In this document: piece after piece, positions 1,246-54,461 of the stretch
How positions within the stretch are numbered: the stretch's first letter is position 1
Layout of the letters: every line of letters begins with the position of its first letter
Origin: Clostridium pasteurianum DSM 525 = ATCC 6013
GTDB lineage: Bacteria; Bacillota; Clostridia; Clostridiales; Clostridiaceae
Assembly: GCF_000807255.1 (NCBI RefSeq)
Contig: NZ_CP009268.1
Span: 526,384-590,383 of the forward strand
DNA length: 64,000 nucleotides
Direction of reading: 5' to 3'
Position numbers and translations under genes: made by a program
The notes under the pieces: model-generated
What the model was told of the DNA's origin: nothing
Seen by the model: only the letters and a program-made list of their open reading frames with translations
The model's database searches: none

Positions 1246-1496
1246 AAATATATCAACACCTTTCATCAATGAATTTTATTTAGTGGGAGTTTGTATTCCT
1301 GTTATTGGATAAATTTATAATATATTATATGCATTATTATACAATTAAATTTATAAATATGCAATAAATCATTTTAAATTTTAATTTAAATTGGTTCATG
1401 GGATAAAATTATCTTAAACAAGCTGCAATTAAAATTGTAGATTTAATTAATGACAGGTAGTAGTGGTATAGAAGTAATTTGAATAGAATAGATATT

Positions 1497-1567
1497 TTAT
1501 CCGATGACTAGTCGCTGGATAATTAATCTAAACTTGAAGGGAGTACAACAAACTCCCTTCAAGTAAG
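1497..1567 (+). repeat. Structured repeat family 1, copy 1 (minimal form)
   Basis: Shortest copy of the dispersed structured element. TTATCC (1497-1502) pairs with GGATAA after an internal GACTA motif, and TCTAAA then leads into a perfect 12-bp hairpin (ACTTGAAGGGAG 1532-1543 / CTCCCTTCAAGT 1553-1564). It lacks the middle of the full copy at 47460-47579 but keeps both structural ends. It is the main content of the roughly 500-nt gap before the MarR gene. Confidence 0.75.
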
Positions 1568-1714
1568 ATTCATTGATAATGAATATAATTTATTGCAGCT
1601 TATATATTTAAAAATTGTTGTAGTTTTATATAGAATTAATATAAATATTTATGCATAAATATTTAGTGCTTTTCTAATACATAGAAAAAATCTATTAAGT
1701 AAATTAAAAAAACA

Positions 1715-2216: not shown

Positions 2217-3050
2217 ATGAAAAATAATATTAAGGGACAAGTTAAAGCCTATTACGGAGGTATAGCTAAAAAAGTAAATGCTGAAACTAAAGTTACTTGT
2301 GGGTGCGGCAGCTCATGCTGTGGAGATGATGCTGCAATTAACTCAAATCTTTATACAAAAGATTATATAGAAGGATTACCAGAGGAAGCTATTAATGCAT
2401 CACTAGGATGTGCAAACCCTATTGTACTTGCAAATCCTCAAAAGGGAGAGGTGGTATTGGACTTAGGAAGCGGCGGCGGAATAGATGTATTTATTTCATC
2501 AAAGTATGTAGGTGAAAGTGGAAAAGTATACGGTCTTGATATGACAGATGAAATGCTTGAATTGGCAAATAAAAATAAAGATAAAATGGAAGTGAAAAAT
2601 GTAGAGTTTATTAAGGGATATATTGAAGACATTCCTCTTAAAAATGAAAGTGTAGATGTTATTACATCAAATTGTGTAATAAATCTTTGTGAGAGTAAAG
2701 AAGATGCATTAAAAGAAGCATATAGAGTATTGAAAAATGGCGGAAGGTTAGCAATCGCTGATGTTGTGGTTCTTAAAGATATTCCTGAGGATATAAAGAA
2801 AAGTGTTGAAATGTGGGTTGGATGCATTGCTGGTGCTTTGGAAGTTAATGAGTATAAAAAAATACTTGAAAATGTTGGATTTAAGGATATTGAAATTACT
2901 CCAGTTAATATATACACCAAAGAAATAATAGAGGATATTGCAAAACAGAAGAATTTGGAAGATGTATATAGTAAGATAGATTCAGAGCTTCTTGATGGAG
3001 CTTTTGCAGGAGCACATGTTAAGGCATATAAACAGAGCTCTTGGCATTAG
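2217..3050 (+). CDS. arsM: Arsenite methyltransferase
   Basis: SAM-dependent methyltransferase of 277 residues that methylates arsenite. The SAM-binding motif LDLGSGGG lies at about 81-88. Three cysteines expected to hold As(III) are at about 64 (SLGC), 153 (SNCVINL) and 203 (VGCIAGAL); the 50-residue gap between the last two equals that of characterised ArsM proteins. An extra CGCGSSCC cluster is near 28-35. The start is the ATG at 2217 behind AGGGGG; an in-frame GTG at 2184 overlaps marR and has no binding site. It is cotranscribed with marR. A structured repeat begins at the base after the stop codon. Confidence 0.93.
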   Translation: MKNNIKGQVKAYYGGIAKKVNAETKVTCGCGSSCCGDDAAINSNLYTKDYIEGLPEEAINASLGCANPIVLANPQKGEVVLDLGSGGGIDVFISSKYVGESGKVYGLDMTDEMLELANKNKDKMEVKNVEFIKGYIEDIPLKNESVDVITSNCVINLCESKEDALKEAYRVLKNGGRLAIADVVVLKDIPEDIKKSVEMWVGCIAGALEVNEYKKILENVGFKDIEITPVNIYTKEIIEDIAKQKNLEDVYSKIDSELLDGAFAGAHVKAYKQSSWH

Positions 3051-3208
3051 GTGGAGGGTTTTATTCCACATGATGCTTAGAGATCGTTATCCAGGGACGT
3101 AGCCGCTCTTTACTCCAACTTTAGGTAAAACGAAAATTTCAGAAATTTTGTGTGAATGGCTTTCACAGAGTGTGATAGGAGTATTAGAGCGGGTAGTCAT
3201 CGGGTAAG
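3051..3208 (-). repeat. Structured repeat family 1, copy 2
   Basis: Read on the minus strand it has the same order as the 47460 copy: TTACCCGATGACTAC, stem CCGCTCT/AGAGCGG, ACTCC/GGAGT, one hairpin arm containing CACTCTGT...CACACAAAATT, then GGATAAC, TCTAA and a 3' hairpin (GTGGA/TCCAC). On the plus strand that hairpin starts immediately after the arsM stop codon. The stem sequences differ from other copies, yet pairing is kept. Confidence 0.75.
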
Positions 3209-3226
3209 TAGTTGGGGGAGAGAAAG

Positions 3227-3724
3227 ATGGATTATAAAATTGATGAAATGAAGGAATCGGACTGGGAACAAGTAGCAAAGATATATCTAGAGGGCATTAA
3301 TACAGGTAAGGCAACATTTCAGACAGAAGTTCCAACCTTTGAAAATTGGAATAATGGACATATTACTTCCTGTAGATTAGTAGCACTCTCAGTAGAAAAG
3401 AATGTATTGGGTTGGGTTGCATTAAGCCCCACATCAAGTAGATGTGTCTATGCAGGAGTTGCAGAGGTTAGTATATATATTGGAGAAAATTATAGAGGAT
3501 TAGGAATAGGGAAAGGCCTCCTTAATAATTTGATTAAAAAATCAGAAGAAAATGGATTTTGGACATTGCAATCAGGTATTATAAGAGAAAACACTGCAAG
3601 TATAGAGCTGCATAAGAAATGTGGATTTAAGCTGGTTGGCATAAGAGAAAAAATTGCCAAAATGAGTAATGGTGTATGGCATGATGTTGCCTTTATGGAG
3701 CGTAGAAGTAATATTATAAGATAA
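3227..3724 (+). CDS. arsN: GNAT N-acetyltransferase, phosphinothricin/arsinothricin type
   Basis: A 165-residue GNAT enzyme of the phosphinothricin/methionine-sulfoximine acetyltransferase group. The acetyl-CoA loop YRGLGIGKG is near residues 89-97, and the family-typical start (EMKESDWEQVAKIYLEG) and end (KCGFKLVGIREKIAK, WHDVAFMER) are present. Members of this group next to arsenic genes are called ArsN and acetylate arsinothricin, a methylated-arsenic antibiotic analogue of glutamate. Location behind arsM supports that role, but phosphinothricin or methionine sulfone are possible substrates. The ATG at 3227 is chosen because GGGGGAG lies 6 nt upstream. Only the repeat separates it from arsM. 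Confidence 0.8.
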   Translation: MDYKIDEMKESDWEQVAKIYLEGINTGKATFQTEVPTFENWNNGHITSCRLVALSVEKNVLGWVALSPTSSRCVYAGVAEVSIYIGENYRGLGIGKGLLNNLIKKSEENGFWTLQSGIIRENTASIELHKKCGFKLVGIREKIAKMSNGVWHDVAFMERRSNIIR

Positions 3725-5545: not shown

Positions 5546-5686
5546 CACTGTAGATTGATAGATCAATATTGGCGATAATAGCATTATATTGCAATCATAT
5601 AATAGTATTATTTATACCATGACTTTTAAGCATTGTGTATTATAAGCAAAAATTTTATCTGGTGCAAGAATTCTGTTTATTAGTAA

Positions 5687-7741: not shown

Positions 7742-7780
7742 GTTATGAAAATCATATTGTAATATGTTTAAAAAGATAAA

Positions 7781-7969
7781 TTGAAGCAAGTTCTTGATTC
7801 AGGTGGAGATTCTTTTACCCCATCTGAATTTTAGAACTGCAAATACATGGCTTACTTGGCGTCGAACTCCCACTTGAATAAAAGCAGAGAACCAAAATCT
7901 TTTTTTGATTTTGTGTGAATCGCTGTATAGAGTGCGTAGAAGACTTACGCCAAGTTAGTCAGGTGAAAA
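7781..7969 (-). repeat. Structured repeat family 1, copy 3
   Basis: A long-form copy read on the minus strand: CCTGACTAACTTGGCGTAAG, one hairpin arm (GCACTCTATACAGC...CACACAAAATC), ACGCCAAGTAAGCC, then the 3' hairpin GTTCTAAAATTCAG / CTGAATCAAGAAC. It follows the terminator of unit 2. Confidence 0.8.
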
Positions 7970-12806: not shown

Positions 12807-14999
12807 ATGATTTTTGAAAATAAAAAAGTAAATGCGGCTATTTTTGATATGGATGGAACTATGTTTGATACAGAAAGACTTAGAATGAAAATGTTAAAAG
12901 ATGCATCTAAAATGCTTTATGGGGAAAGCATTGATGATCAGATATTAATAGATTCCCTAGGACTTAGTGCAAAGTCTTCAGAAGCTCTTGCTAAAGAGAG
13001 ATATGGGAAAGATTATCCCTATAAGGAAATTCGTAAAAAAGCAGACGAGCTTGAACTGCAATATGTTAGAAAAAATGGAGTCCCCATTAAGGAAGGTCTC
13101 ATAGATGTTTTAGAGAGGCTGAAGAGAAATGGCGTATTGCTGGCAGTAGCTACTTCAAGCAGAAGAGTTATAACAGAAGAATATCTTATGCGTGCTAATA
13201 TAATAGGTTATTTTGATATTATTGTATGTGGAGATGAGGTTGAAAAGGGTAAACCTAATCCTGAAATATTCTTGAAGGCAGCTGGTGAATTAAATTGTGA
13301 ACCTTCAAATTGTTTAATATTTGAGGATTCTCAAAATGGACTTCTTGCAGCAGCAGATTCTGCTTCAATGCCTATATTTATAAAGGACATGAAAGAACCA
13401 AAAGAAGAAATTAAAGCTCGTGCATTTAAAGCTTATGACAATATGTTGGAATTTTTAGAAGATTTGATAAAATATACTGCTAAAATGCCTACACCGCCAA
13501 AATTAAATGAGCATTTCCCAAAAAGATTAAACCATATGAAAGTTGGAATTCATGGTTTTGGTGCTATTGGAGGAGGGTATTTGACACAAATTTTTTCACA
13601 TTGGGATGGATATACAAGACCAGCTGAAATAATTGGAGCTACAAGAAATTCAAATCTCATAGAACTTATAAATGCCTTTGGAAAATTTAATGTTCATTAT
13701 GAAAGTTTGGCCTTTGATCAGACAATTACTAATGTGAGGTTGATAAATACCTCAGATGAAGAAGCCATGAAGAAGATGTATTCTCAGTCGGAAATAATCG
13801 GGCTTAGTCTTCCAGAAGGAGCTATCAAAAAAGAAGCAGATATTATTGCAAAGGGACTTATAGAAAGATACAACAACAATGGTAAATATATAACAATCCT
13901 CGTAATACTAAATAAAATAGGTGGAGGATTATATGTAAAAGATAATGTAGAGAAGTCATTGAAAAAGTTTATTGGAGAAGAAAAAGCTAAAGAGATTATA
14001 GAAAAAGCTTTATTTACAGAAACAGTTGTAAATAGGATGGTATCTAAGATAAAGGAACAAACTATACTAAAACAAGTAAAAATGAATTTAAAAACTGTTG
14101 AAGGAAACATTTTGAAAAAGGATATTGATATTAGTTCTATTTTAGGTATTCCTTCAAATGAGAATATGGATAGAAACAGAAATAAAAAAGCAGCAGATGT
14201 AAATACAAGCGACTCCTTAATAAGTAATATTTCTAAAAAACTGTATAATGTATCTGAAATTGCTCATGAATTATCCAAGCTGAATATTACTGTATTTAAT
14301 AGTGAAGCTGATATGCTGCTGTATGCAAGTAAGGGAAGTCTTATTTTAGAGAGAATGAGGCAGATTAAAACTGTGGATAATATAGCTGAAATGCAGGATG
14401 TAAAAAATAAGTTATCTAATGGAACTCATGCTATTATTGCTTGGTATTCAAGTCTTTTAGGATATAAGACTATTGGTCAGGGAATGGGAGATGAACAGGT
14501 AATTTCTCTAGTTAAAAAGGTTATGAGCAAAGAAATAAAACCAGCTATTGTAAAAAACAATAAAGAATTAACAGAATATGTAGACAGCTTCATAGCTAAA
14601 TTTATTAAGAGATGCAGATATTCTTTTAAAGATCCTTGTGTACGTGTTGGTCGTGATCCTCTTAGAAAATTGAAAAGTGGTGAGCGTGTAATGGGAACTA
14701 TTGACTTAGCCCACAAAAATGGCGTGTCTACTCCTATGCTTGAGTTTGGTGTTGCGGCAGGATTACTTTATTCTATTTTAGCTGTTAATCCAAAGGACAA
14801 AGAATGTGAAGTTATCAGAAAGGTATACGAAAAAGAGAAGTCCATAAAAGCCGTGCTTACTTATGAAGGAAACTATAATGGGAAACCGTATAAGTGCCTT
14901 GATGAGGAGAAGGACAAAGATTTGATTAAGAGAATAGAAAGACAATTTGAAGTTCTAGCTGGAAGTATTGAGAGAAAAGATTTACTCATGACCAGCTAG
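12807..14999 (+). CDS. mtlD: Fused HAD phosphatase / mannitol-1-phosphate dehydrogenase
   Basis: A 730-residue two-domain enzyme. Residues 1-220 are a HAD phosphatase (FDMDGTMFD with D14/D16, EKGKPNPEIF, IFEDSQNG). From 244 begins a long-chain polyol dehydrogenase with NAD motif GIHGFGAIGGG; later come NGTHAIIAWYSSLLGYKTI and RVGRDPLRKL, typical of mannitol-1-phosphate dehydrogenases. The same fusion is known from Acinetobacter, where one protein reduces fructose-6-phosphate and dephosphorylates mannitol-1-phosphate to make mannitol. GGAGGGG precedes the ATG. It has its own promoter and terminator, with no PTS genes nearby, which fits mannitol synthesis rather than uptake. Substrate is inferred. 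Confidence 0.82.
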   Translation: MIFENKKVNAAIFDMDGTMFDTERLRMKMLKDASKMLYGESIDDQILIDSLGLSAKSSEALAKERYGKDYPYKEIRKKADELELQYVRKNGVPIKEGLIDVLERLKRNGVLLAVATSSRRVITEEYLMRANIIGYFDIIVCGDEVEKGKPNPEIFLKAAGELNCEPSNCLIFEDSQNGLLAAADSASMPIFIKDMKEPKEEIKARAFKAYDNMLEFLEDLIKYTAKMPTPPKLNEHFPKRLNHMKVGIHGFGAIGGGYLTQIFSHWDGYTRPAEIIGATRNSNLIELINAFGKFNVHYESLAFDQTITNVRLINTSDEEAMKKMYSQSEIIGLSLPEGAIKKEADIIAKGLIERYNNNGKYITILVILNKIGGGLYVKDNVEKSLKKFIGEEKAKEIIEKALFTETVVNRMVSKIKEQTILKQVKMNLKTVEGNILKKDIDISSILGIPSNENMDRNRNKKAADVNTSDSLISNISKKLYNVSEIAHELSKLNITVFNSEADMLLYASKGSLILERMRQIKTVDNIAEMQDVKNKLSNGTHAIIAWYSSLLGYKTIGQGMGDEQVISLVKKVMSKEIKPAIVKNNKELTEYVDSFIAKFIKRCRYSFKDPCVRVGRDPLRKLKSGERVMGTIDLAHKNGVSTPMLEFGVAAGLLYSILAVNPKDKECEVIRKVYEKEKSIKAVLTYEGNYNGKPYKCLDEEKDKDLIKRIERQFEVLAGSIERKDLLMTS

Positions 15000-15017
15000 G
15001 AGTATTGAAGATATGGC

Positions 15018-15056
15018 TGTCCTGCAGGATATAATTTATTGCAGGACAATTTTTTT
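15018..15056 (+). terminator. Terminator of the fused mtlD gene
   Basis: TGTCCTGCA / TGCAGGACA stem followed by ATTTTTTT, shortly after the stop codon. Confidence 0.88.
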
Positions 15057-15327
15057 ATATATTATACAGCAACTAGTTATCGGATAAATAGCTATTAAAA
15101 TGTAATTTTTCCAATATAGTTGATTTTATTAAAAAAAGAGTGTATTATTTAACTATGACAATAATGTTTTATAGTGCTAAATGGATTTCTATTTTATATA
15201 TTTTCTTAAGGAAATCTTAATAATTAATTTCGCAATTTTTAATAATAATGGTATAAAATAAAATTATAATACATTAGAGGGAAACAATGGATAAAAACAG
15301 ATAAATTACATAGTCTGGAGGTAATTG

Positions 15328-16148: not shown

Positions 16149-16190
16149 AAAATAATCCTCCTACAATATATGTAATATGTAGATCTTCAA

Positions 16191-16373
16191 TTGAAGCAAG
16201 TTCTTAATTCAGGTGGTGATTCTTTTACCCCATCTGAATTTTAGAACTTCAAATGCATGGCTTACTTGGTGTAGAGCTTCCACTTGAAGAAAAGCAGAGA
16301 ACCAAAATCTTCGATTTTGTGTGAGGGCTGTACAGAGTGCGTGGGAGACTTACGCCAAGTTAGTCAGGTTAAA
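16191..16373 (-). repeat. Structured repeat family 1, copy 4
   Basis: Long form with one hairpin arm. Minus-strand order: CCTGACTAACTTGGCGTAAG, CTCCCAC, arm, then GTTCTAAAATTCAG...CTGAATTAAGAAC. It lies upstream of the mntR-like gene, so transcription of that gene could start inside or beyond it. Confidence 0.8.
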
Positions 16374-25024: not shown

Positions 25025-25168
25025 TAAATTTTATTTAATAACTATAACTGGTTACTGTAACACTCCGTTGCACTTTATATAGCAATAAAAAACAAAATAA
25101 ACAAAGTTTTTTAGGGTAAATAAGTTATCAAGAGATGTAGCAGCAGTTATCTCTCATTTTTGTATAAT

Positions 25169-25200
25169 GAAAAAAATAGATGTACCAAAAGGCACATCTC
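25169..25200 (-). terminator. Terminator of the two-component operon
   Basis: On the minus strand AGATGTGCC-TTTT-GGTACATCT is followed by ATTTTTTT, about 140 nt after the response regulator stop. Confidence 0.8.
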
Positions 25201-29158: not shown

Positions 29159-29340
29159 TAAGTACACCTCCGAATTTATAGTGATAAACTGTAAACTGCT
29201 GCTAAAGGACAGAATAAGCAGCAGTTCACTGTTGTAGTCATTTTTTAGATGAAATTCAGTAAAATATATTTTTGTATAGTCTATGCAAATACTTTAACTG
29301 AAAAACTGAAATTTTAACTATAGATATCTAAAGTCTGTAA

Positions 29341-29578
29341 TTGAAGCAAGTTCTTAATTCAGGTGGGGATTCTTTTACCCTATCTGAATTTTAGAACTGC
29401 GAATGCATGGCTTACTTGGCGTTGAACTCCCACTTGAAGAAAAGCAGAGAGCCCAAATTTTAATTTGGTGCGAATCGCTTTCACAGAGTGCAAGCAGAGA
29501 ACCAAAATCTTCTTTTCGATTTTGTGTGAGGGCTGTACAGCGTGCGGGGGAGACTTACGCCAAGTTAGTTAGGTTAAA
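29341..29578 (-). repeat. Structured repeat family 1, copy 5 (two arms)
   Basis: Long form with two tandem hairpin arms of about 50 nt, each with AAGCAGAGA-CCAAA-TTTTG/TTTGG and ending CTGTACAG or CTTTCACAG, then TGC. It separates the secreted-protein genes from the ABC transporter genes of the same strand and so would be within a common transcript. Confidence 0.8.
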
Positions 29579-39440: not shown

Positions 39441-39575
39441 TTTCACCTGACTAACTTGGCGTAAGTCTCCACTTTATTTAAGTGGGAGTTCAACGCCAAG
39501 TAAGCTATGCATTTGCAGTTCTAAAATTCAGATGGAGTAAAAGAATCCCAACCTGAATTAAGAACTTGTTTCAAT
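39441..39575 (+). repeat. Structured repeat family 1, copy 6 (no arm)
   Basis: Sense orientation on plus: CCTGACTAACTTGGCGTAAG, CTCC/GGAG closing a short loop without an extra arm, ACGCCAAGTAAGC, then GTTCTAAAATTCAG / CTGAATTAAGAAC. It lies between the sulfur enzyme and its regulator. Its last bases supply the stop codon of the ArsR gene (TTGAAACAAG contains the TGA). Confidence 0.8.
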
Positions 39576-39855
39576 CTTCACTAAACAATGTATTCAATAA
39601 AGCGGCTATTTTTTTATTAGATACTTTATAGCGTATTTCTAATCCATTTCTCATTCCTCTTATGATTCCGGCACTTTTAAGCTTTTGTAAATGTTGAGAT
39701 ACTGTGGACTGGGGAATTCCCAAACATTCTTGCATATGGCTTACATTGCAGCCTCCATTTTCTATTAAACCCTTGACTATACAAAGTCTTACCGGATGGG
39801 CAAGTATTTTTAGTATTTCAGCTGCATCGTTAAATTGAGATAAATCCTTATTCAT
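39571..39855 (-). CDS. ArsR-family regulator, probably persulfide- or thiol-responsive
   Basis: A 94-residue ArsR/SmtB winged-helix repressor (AHPVRLCIVKGLIENGGCNV, GIPQSTVSQHLQKLKSAGII, EIRYKVSNKK). Cysteines occur at about 29, 37 and 44 (GGCNVSHMQECLG), near the recognition helices; related regulators use such Cys to sense persulfide or metals. Cotranscription with the downstream sulfur enzyme makes reactive sulfur the likely signal. GAGG lies about 9 nt before the ATG. The stop codon falls inside a structured repeat. Confidence 0.85.
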   Translation of the reverse strand: MNKDLSQFNDAAEILKILAHPVRLCIVKGLIENGGCNVSHMQECLGIPQSTVSQHLQKLKSAGIIRGMRNGLEIRYKVSNKKIAALLNTLFSED

Positions 39856-47096: not shown

Positions 47097-47459
47097 GTCA
47101 ATTTCTCCTCCCATTCCCCATGTGTAATTAGCATATAAATTATAGTGAATATACATTTATTTAGTAACCATTTCTGTTTTGAGTATTTAATCTATAAAAA
47201 TATTAAACTCAAGTGCAATAAGCTTGAGTTTAATATATCAATTGATATGATAATTGTCAATCTAATGAAAAAAGATGAGGTGAAAACAATTGATAATTGA
47301 AATTGACAGCAGGTTAAAATAATAAATAGATAGCTTAAAATGAAGGGGATTTTTAAAAAAATTTATAATGGTATATTTCAGTGAATCAGTATATAATATT
47401 AATATCAGTAAAATTAAATCTTAGGTATTTGCTGCCCATATTAATAGTGAAATAATTAT

Positions 47460-47579
47460 TTATCCGATGACTACCAGCCGTAATACTCCCAGTGCACTTT
47501 GTACAGTGGGAGACAACGGCTGCTATGTCCCTGGATAACAATTTCTAAACTTCAGATGAAAAAAACATCTGAAGTAAAG
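47460..47579 (+). repeat. Structured repeat family 1, copy 7
   Basis: Sense-oriented copy that defines the architecture: TTATCC...GGATAA outer stem, GACTA motif, AGCCGT/ACGGCT stem, CTCCCA/TGGGAG closing a small loop (GCACTTTGTACAG is a vestige of the arm), then TCTAAA and a perfect 3' hairpin ACTTCAGATG / CATCTGAAGT. It is the main content of the 580-nt gap between the AI-2E and coiled-coil genes. Confidence 0.8.
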
Positions 47580-47679
47580 AACTTTGTTTATAGAATTTAT
47601 TGAAATAGTTGTATTAATATATAGAAAAGTGGTCAAAATCATGAAAAAGAGTATAAACTTATAATTAGGTGGTGAAATA

Positions 47680-50548: not shown

Positions 50549-51008
50549 ATATAAGCAGCACTCCTTGTAACTTAATTACAGTAATTAAGTTTATTTTACC
50601 TTAATTGAAATCCATTATCAAGAATATTTTGGAAATTATTATTACATTAAACATTGAATAACTAGGATTTAATAGTTATAAAATAATATATTTTATCTAG
50701 AAAAAATATATGTATACTTTTACTAATTAGTATAAAAATGTATAATAGGTTGATAATCATTATTGATTAAAGTATAATGATTTCATATAACTGATTATAT
50801 AATTATTTTAATAATATATGAGCCAATATATCTTCAAGTATAAAATTAAGAATTTTAATTTTATGCGAATTACTATATAGATTACCATAGAACACTAGGT
50901 CTGATAGTAATGGGATAAATTATCTGAATTTAAATATAGAGTAGTAAAGTTAATCCTCCAAGGTTAACATTCATTGATAACAATCAATAAGAAGAGGTGA
51001 CCAGCTTC
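50549..51008. other. Divergent intergenic region with Fur-box-like sites
   Basis: About 460 AT-rich nt between the HD-GYP and PilZ genes. TTGATAATCATTATTGATTAA (50750-50770) resembles a Fur box, TACTAATTAGTA (50721-50732) is a palindrome, and ATTGATAACAATCAAT (50973-50988) lies just before the PilZ ribosome binding site. No gene seen. Confidence 0.5.
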
Positions 51009-53578: not shown

Positions 53579-53771
53579 ATTATACAGATACCAGTTCAGG
53601 AATAAAATATTTATATAATTATTTACTCTCATGTAATTTAAAGCATAGTCAATTAAAAGGTTTTTTGCATATATTATATATGGGTTAGGGTTAATGTAAA
53701 TTAATATACAGAAGAAAATTTTTATAGATAAGCTTAATATACGGCAGTTAGTTATTAGATAAACTTATTAA

Positions 53772-54009
53772 TTGAAGCAAATTCTTAATTCAGGTGGGGA
53801 TTCTTTTACCCCATCTGAATTTTAGAACTGCAAATGCATGACTTACTTGGCGTTGAACTCCCACTTGAAGAAAAGCAGAGAACCAAAATCTTCTTTTTGA
53901 TTTTGTGTGAGGGCTGTACAGAGTGCAAGCAGAGAACCCAAATTTTAATTTTGTGCGAATCGCTGTACAGAGTGTTTGGGAGACTTACGCCAAGTTAGTC
54001 AGGTGAAAA
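53772..54009 (-). repeat. Structured repeat family 1, copy 8 (two arms)
   Basis: Long form with two tandem arms; the arm order is reversed relative to copy 5. It lies about 190 nt after the YcgQ-like gene. Confidence 0.8.
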
Positions 54010-54280
54010 TTAATACTTTTTTAGCTCTGGACATATGGTCCAGGGCATCTGTAATTTTGTATAGATTTAATATAAATAATTTTAATGACAATAGATTAAG
54101 TAGATTTGTTAACAAAGTTTTGGTGCTCTATATACAATTAAAGGAAAAAATAGTATACTATAATTAGTTACTATCTCATTTAAACATAATTCTTTATATA
54201 TTAGCCAGGATATTGTATCCTGGTTTTTGTTATATAAATAACAATATGCTTTTAATGTTATTAAACAATTTATAAAAGAT
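54010..54280 (+). other. Spacer between two structured repeats with a hairpin and a terminator
   Basis: GCTCTGGAC-ATATG-GTCCAGGGC (54024-54046) is a strong hairpin, and CCAGGATA-TTG-TATCCTGG followed by TTTTTG (54205-54230) is a typical terminator. No credible ORF lies between. A short untranslated transcript or the remains of a gene are possible. Confidence 0.45.
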
Positions 54281-54461
54281 TCAAGCAAGTTCTTAATTCA
54301 GGCGGGGATTCTTTTACCCCGTCTGAATTTTAGAACTGCAAATGCATGGCTTACTTGGCGTCGAACTCCCACTTGAAGAAAAGTAGAGAGCCCAAATTTT
54401 AATTTGGTGCGAGGACTGTACAGAGTGCGTTGGAGTCTTACGCCAAGTTAGTCAGGTGAAA
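54281..54461 (-). repeat. Structured repeat family 1, copy 9
   Basis: Long form with one arm, same orientation as copy 8 and 270 nt from it. Outer end varies (TTCAAGCAAG in place of TTGAAGCAAG). It precedes the nitroreductase gene by about 200 nt. Confidence 0.8.

Follow-up and report, generated by a model that had tools for sequence, protein, structure and literature searches.

The element and its copies in the window

The window analysed here is a stretch of 64,000 nucleotides (30.5% GC) at positions 526384-590383 of the single-contig genome of Clostridium pasteurianum DSM 525, which has 4,352,101 bases. Scattered through it are nine copies of a folded element, all of which were found at the positions and on the strands given for them in a preliminary description of this DNA. 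As that description had proposed, a covariance model was built. This model, R2, was trained on nine sequences from the same genome that belong to subfamilies A and C (see below); the copy at 47460 is the only one of them from the window, no B copy is included, and all nine places are matched. An earlier model, R1, made from mixed A and B sequences, yielded no consensus pairs and was discarded. The copies, and the parts of the one at 47460, are as follows.

47459-47591 (+): complete subfamily A copy, 133 nt (R2 E=1e-27; fold z=-8.4)
47459-47463 (+): left target word TTTAT of this copy, placed by conserved left edges and by the single TTTAT at empty sites elsewhere
47476-47521 (+): its 5' hairpin, AGCCGT...ACGGCT with inner CTCCC/GGGAG, from the MFE fold; helices 2-3 covary
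47533-47539 (+): its proposed guide word GGATAAC, pairing with the left TTTATCC (helix P1) or, alternatively, with the right GTTTAT
47542-47581 (+): its 3' hairpin (P5), in which 14 of 22 pairs are changed on both sides in alignment A3
47587-47591 (+): its right end TTTAT, element-borne, placed by common edges and by empty sites elsewhere
3028-3208 (-): subfamily A copy with one module (R2 E=9e-19)
1496-1578 (+): C-type variant with the 5' hairpin lost and right end TTGATA (R2 E=1e-6 over 1496-1577)
39442-39576 (+): subfamily B copy with no module, from length and R2 (39448, E=2e-4)
7779-7967 (-): subfamily B copy with one module, from length and R2 (7781, E=0.002)
16189-16372 (-): subfamily B copy with one module, from length and R2 (16191, E=0.005)
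29339-29577 (-): subfamily B copy with two modules, from length; R2 is weak taken alone (29341, E=0.02)
53770-54007 (-): subfamily B copy with two modules, from length, missing from the syntenic region of genome G003; R2 is weak taken alone (53772, E=0.08)
53873-53926 (-): 53-nt module inside the copy at 53770 (98% match to the module query)
54278-54460 (-): subfamily B copy with one module, from length and R2 (54280, E=0.01), missing from the syntenic region of G003

Beyond the nine, partial or decayed copies lie at 14888-15092 (-) and 50719-50923 (-), and weak R2 matches at 5611-5680 (+) and 25097-25196 (-). The window copies contain no open reading frame (ORF) of 90 aa or more, which agrees with the earlier statement that no protein is encoded. 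Together with the copies measured elsewhere they span 83-351 nt, complete elements being 133-351 nt long.

Subfamilies and modules

The preliminary description had divided the copies into two subfamilies that also share an arm sequence. Here the nine are assigned to subfamilies A and B, and the shared arm, CACTCTGT...CACACAAAAT, can now be described as a module of about 53 nt whose number varies. Subfamily A is represented in the window by the copies at 47460, 3051 and 1497 (the last being the C-type variant without a 5' hairpin) and subfamily B by the remaining six. Because four B copies reach E<=0.01 with R2, a model that contains no B sequence, A and B are regarded as structural relatives. 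The B copies are also linked independently of R2: of 196 candidates in the genome 40 were scored, and at 40 places identity to them is 84-100%.

Subfamily A follows the left word TTTAT with CCGATGACTACC, a 5' hairpin with inner CTCC/GGAG, CCCTGGATAAC, a 3' hairpin set between TCTAA...AAGAACTCTG, and finally TTTAT. The plan of subfamily B, after TT(A/C)AC, is CTGACTA, ACTTGGCGT, AAGTCTCC, a variable number of the ~53-nt modules, GGGAGTTCAACGCCAAGT, ATTTG, a 3' hairpin and TTCAAT. Judged by length, 36 B copies carry zero to four modules: none in 1 copy, one in 10, two in 19, three in 4 and four in 2. These counts are biased, as most copies were retrieved with a query that itself has two modules. 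Outside our genome, A copies can have similar modules at the same position (L128, L119, L136, L095 and L239), and modules in the loop of the 5' hairpin may be passengers tolerated by whatever enzyme moves the element. A mini-form was also seen, ~60 nt long and made up of TTTATCC-TAAA-GGACAA and the 3' hairpin; it stands alone in L108 at ~3213-3273 (G003:C1 ~689141-689201) and is nested within the 3' hairpin of larger copies (L005/L067, L065, L073 and L116) in two genera.

Fold and covariation

Three core copies fold more stably than expected, with RNA fold z-scores of -4.5 for 39442, -8.4 for 47459 and -6.2 for L014; the value for 39442 folded as DNA is -6.2, and that for the two-module copy at 53770 is -5.4. 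Covariation of the stems, which had been proposed from the window copies, was confirmed on alignment A3, a MAFFT alignment of 46 sequences, mainly from other genomes, that was not fitted to a structure; the structure was drawn on the L080 row. The 46 were picked by eye from 58, the 12 left out being composite, truncated, near-identical or poorly aligned. Paired bases occupy 87.2% of the 2091 cells; the shuffles give 81.6%, and slid partners no more than 46.2%. Two-sided changes affect 26 of the 46 pairs (shuffles 14.3, slid partners at most 17) and 120 cells (shuffles 37.8 +- 6.3, slid partners at most 32), and neither of these two figures is reached in any of 500 shuffles. Since the rows are related, the shuffle controls overstate significance, and their figures should not be read as probabilities. 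For instance, at columns 97/139 of the 3' hairpin 23 sequences have U-A, 21 have C-G and two are exceptions.

A strongly conserved fold with compensatory changes speaks for a mobile structured RNA, as had been suggested earlier; this would be a retro-element or SINE-like sequence copied by a reverse transcriptase. An RNA under selection should show far more G.U than A.C. Among pairs that are at least 70% Watson-Crick there are 50 G.T and 40 A.C, no clear excess, and counts so close to each other speak for folded DNA or neutral decay rather than for RNA, although the test is weak because old copies decay. Rfam 15 gave no match at gathering score anywhere in the window, and a permissive search with two window stretches and seven loci from six genomes returned only chance-level matches (microRNA, snoRNA and similar). 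Copies also stand in both orientations to genes, and the target is precise, without variable duplications or tails. A mobile RNA is therefore improbable.

Insertion sites and ends

The element is mobile. Both of its edges are sharp in A and in B, and the left word TTTAT is 92-94% conserved per base over 49 left edges. The preliminary description had recommended a look for empty sites, and these were found: two independent A insertions can be compared base by base with an unoccupied site, and both lie directly 3' of TTTAT. Each empty site has one TTTAT, and the element, CC...TTTAT, follows directly after it; neither insertion shows further duplication or inverted repeats. The first lies beside a RAYT gene, where the filled locus L170 (genome G173) is matched by the empty L172 (G174). 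L172 reads GTGTTTT TTTAT GCTAATT, and L170 is identical except for CC...TTTAT inserted after TTTAT. The second, L151 in G174, lies inside a tnpB-like gene, and its empty counterparts are tnpB genes of our genome (L048 and L049). The inserted copy, L151:1511-1645 (G174:C13:317010-317144, -), is flanked on its left by sequence with 85-86% identity to L048/L049 and on its right by sequence with 81-83%.

The first case came to light by chance. The second was obtained from a comparison of 212 copies with the fetched loci that listed eight pairings, two of which (L145 and L192) represent a single place. Near-clean cases are L084 and, in subfamily B, L013; the pairing of L029 is not clean, and L264 is a tandem. 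Head-to-tail copies with a single shared TTTAT occur at L138 and L264. For subfamily B, one near-clean case suggests that the target may be TTMAC. The G003 region corresponding to 53772 and 54281 has neither copy, and it holds a C-type copy and a ~60-nt mini-copy of its own. At contig 22 of G173 an exact empty site was not found, the flanks being too diverged, and G174 and G175 have no full element there.

The right end is part of the element and reads TTTAT or TTGAT, or TTCAAT in subfamily B. Read from common edges, the g3-type (L284-L286) combines right end TTGAT, and the C-type right end TTGATA, with the left word TTTAT. With right ends in other subfamilies that do not match the left word, a target duplication cannot be the general origin of the flanking word.

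Possible pairing of an internal word with both ends

The word between the two hairpins of subfamily A can pair with either end. The pairing of GGATAA with the left TTTATCC, helix P1, is well supported: 98.9% of cells are paired, and C-G is replaced by T-A in 3 of 46 sequences. The pairing of the overlapping ATAAC with the right GTTTAT is suggestive. Here 96.5% of cells are paired, C-G changes to T-A in two cells of one pair, and among 500 shuffles the percentage was reached by 13, the number of two-sided pairs by 92 and the number of two-sided cells by 6. When guide words and right ends of seven hand-picked subfamilies were exchanged and scored by RNA energies, 41 of 5040 permutations did as well, the true one included, and a foreign right end outscored the element's own in three of the seven (A-T, C and f81). 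The left and right pairings use common bases and are mutually exclusive; we infer an internal word that serves both ends in turn. GGATAAC is, in addition, complementary to the joined right-left junction GTTTATCC except for one bulged T.

Orientation and gene context

Copies are mostly intergenic and stand in either orientation; only 2 of 115 copies in the fetched loci overlap an ORF of at least 90 aa by more than half. Subfamily A, pooled over many genomes, has no preference relative to flanking genes (same direction in 42/80 and 47/79), and B tends to oppose the upstream gene (same direction in 7 of 32). Relative to replication, A is co-directional in 105 of 163 copies from two genomes (p=0.0003) and B is without bias (21/40). 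The 163 comprise 109 of the 145 G003 matches and 54 matches of our genome, those at E<=0.001 among the 88 at E<=0.1; the midpoint of the contig was taken as the border between replichores, with which GC skew at 54 own-genome and 12 G003 loci agrees.

The median distance to the nearest ORFs, 98-131 nt, and the stable folds would suit a regulatory or structural RNA kept for its function at each site. As the main explanation this is largely refuted, and we give it hardly any weight: copies face both ways relative to genes, their presence differs between related genomes, and one has been inserted into a tnpB-like gene. Individual copies may nevertheless have been co-opted.

Distribution and age

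The element is abundant in its host and widespread among related bacteria. Between 8 and 150 candidates were scored per genome, and all copy numbers are thus lower bounds. Our genome has at least 88 R2 matches at E<=0.1 and at least 54 at E<=0.001 (150 candidates scored), and at least 48 matches to a B query (40 of 196 candidates scored). Four of five genomes of the genus are positive, with at least 145 R2 matches in G003. Across the host's own family, 82 of 206 genomes were positive, representing 22 of 46 genera (E<=1e-4), and a sample of the class gave 27 positives among 391 genomes (E<=1e-5), 14 from the same family and 13 from seven other families. G527 (family f81) holds eight copies that are 93.5-97.8% alike, and nine of ten copies sampled in G173 are identical in unlike surroundings, which together point to a recent burst. 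A sample of ten copies from G174 includes two pairs with common flanks, which are duplicates.

Searches of other collections were negative. Plasmid records gave no match to the A or B query, phage records none to the A query and IMG/VR none to one exact 23-base pattern; these are weak negatives, run without a positive control. A protein-anchored search of genome contigs also gave no match. No published description was found among the open-access literature searched, and the consulted part of PMC6429828 has nothing on the element. The C. autoethanogenum genome is reported to be repeat-rich, without mention of the element in the consulted part of that paper, which does describe an additional putative CRISPR array, made up of three repeats of 55 bp and spacers of 16 bp (PMC4022347). 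From that account, the array could be a miscalled run of the 53-nt modules of subfamily B.

Search for the mobilising enzyme

The preliminary description had proposed a search for a TnpA/TnpB or other protein with matching ends. No Y1 or TnpB locus examined carries such ends. A Y1 search of ten element-bearing genomes was positive in eight, with 61 matches in total (7 in G173), and 30 of the 61, from the eight genomes, were examined; none has an R2 match. Motifs of the A ends number 23 across these 30 Y1 loci, 20 RAYT loci and 11 own-genome loci, as against 22.0 in shuffles. Among the own-genome Y1/TnpB loci and the 20 RAYT-type loci, an element lies within the 1.5-kb flanks at L044, L047, L170 and L177, and no gene is bounded by element ends. 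The host's own IS200 element was considered as a parent and rejected, as the ends of its three copies (L039-L041) differ. These copies, identical over at least 684 bp and inserted after TATAA or TTTAA, belong to a recently active Y1 element.

The idea of a guide-RNA-like scaffold, also raised earlier, finds no backing in Rfam or at the five tnpB loci of our genome. In a related reading, the element would derive from the right end or the omega-RNA of an IS605 element of the TnpB type. We take the left flank TTTAT to resemble the target-adjacent motif of TnpB elements, a point for such an origin; against it, none of the five loci has the element at its 3' end, the nearest sign being a weak match (E=0.003) in L047, some 1.3 kb beyond the stretch matched by TnpB. 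A TnpB derivative is thus slightly less probable still than the mobile RNA discussed above. Nothing examined shows the copies to be decayed ends of one known insertion sequence.

RAYT (REP-associated Y1) proteins were a further candidate. RAYT-type proteins (E<1e-40) occur in 55 of 206 genomes, and the element in 29 of these 55 versus 53 of the 151 others, a weak association (p=0.025, kinship not corrected); 53 of the 82 element genomes have no RAYT at this threshold. Among the 20 RAYT loci, an element lies within 1.5 kb in only 2, and one of these two is L170, which was inserted recently. By comparison, a palindrome, CCCCAGGGG, lies within 300 nt of the RAYT gene at 9 of 20 loci (L164-L166, L172-L174 and L179-L181) and at 0 of 26 other loci; it is likely the REP of these RAYTs and unrelated to the element. 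With a palindrome of its own and so seldom adjacent, RAYT is probably not the mover, and it was rejected as a candidate.

A folded element might also be moved by a recombinase other than Y1 that reads structured DNA. Such an enzyme would account for G133 and G153, which are rich in elements and have no Y1 match, and for the Y1/TnpB loci examined, none of which carries the ends. However, the insertion habit, the guide-like pairing and the orientation bias of A match IS200/IS605, and the copies sampled in the Y1-free genomes look old: no pair exceeds 97% identity in G133 (14 sampled) or 94% in G153 (6 sampled), the sample being the best model matches and not a random one. The greater apparent age compared with G173, which has Y1 matches and identical copies, fits a requirement for Y1, as far as very few genomes allow. 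We consider a non-Y1 recombinase unlikely, less so than either a mobile RNA or a TnpB derivative.

Proposed mechanism and comparison with known systems

Taken together, the evidence points to a gene-free element that probably transposes the way IS200/IS605 elements do, as single-stranded DNA in folded form, and is mobilised in trans by a Y1-type (HUH) transposase. The boundaries of the element, its covarying two-hairpin fold, its spread and, base for base in two cases, the insertion of subfamily A directly 3' of TTTAT are established here. The mover would recognise the hairpins, GGATAAC would guide it to the left target word and to the right end, and the transposition intermediate would be single-stranded. 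The earlier suggestion of a non-autonomous IS200/IS605-like element is supported in behaviour (fixed 5-nt target without further duplication, no terminal inverted repeats, subterminal hairpins, potential pairing of the ends with an internal word) but not by descent, as none of the Y1/TnpB loci examined carries these ends.

Non-autonomous relatives of IS200/IS605 include palindrome-associated elements (PATEs). The present element likewise has subterminal hairpins, a short fixed left target, a right cleavage word that it carries itself and no inverted repeats; it differs in that it lacks a transposase gene, and an autonomous copy bearing its ends was not found. As set out in the consulted part of PMC6006769, the subterminal hairpins are what IS200/IS605 enzymes bind; a guide word lies 5' of each hairpin, one pairing with the target that flanks the left end, the other with the final bases of the right end. 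An internal guide that base-pairs with the ends may be common to both (PMC6006769). The element, by contrast with that account, appears to use one internal word for both ends, placed 3' of the first hairpin, instead of one guide per end; the arrangement of the right-end pairing could be the same, whereas the left partner is placed differently.

Other dispersed repeats are similar in part. REP/RAYT systems (REPINs) also consist of many gene-free intergenic hairpin copies, but the present element is complete at 133-351 nt, has two unlike hairpins and is rarely found beside a RAYT gene. BOX elements of Streptococcus pneumoniae, as described in the part of PMC3049150 consulted, are folded and intergenic, with constant ends and a varying number of internal modules. 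The likeness is one of plan only. BOX has terminal inverted repeats, proposed to resemble ISSpn2 (PMC3049150). Among clostridia, Clop-1 of C. perfringens (93 nt, 44 copies) and Clot-1 of C. tetani (74 nt, 19 copies) are intergenic folded repeats, compared here by their description alone, and could be related to the element, judging from the consulted part of the source (PMC2267715).

Implications

In its behaviour, this is a gene-free, modular, IS200/IS605-like element family of clostridia. A more far-reaching proposal is that it represents a widespread gene-free structured mobile DNA of the Clostridia whose two ends are read alternately by a single internal word. Its mover, acting in trans, would be an orphan enzyme or one of the host for which no role in transposition has yet been described, and the element would have stayed active while the class diverged. 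In its entirety this proposal is doubtful, and we offer it tentatively. If the IS200/IS605-like reading favoured here is right, clostridia have a common dispersed element that Rfam, as far as searched, does not contain, and an element without genes has kept up transposition of the single-strand type across a whole class. The subfamilies, with their changed stems, right ends and, in part, guide words, would provide natural variation for testing the pairing code. The element would further account for some of the interspersed, hairpin-rich DNA between the genes of these genomes.
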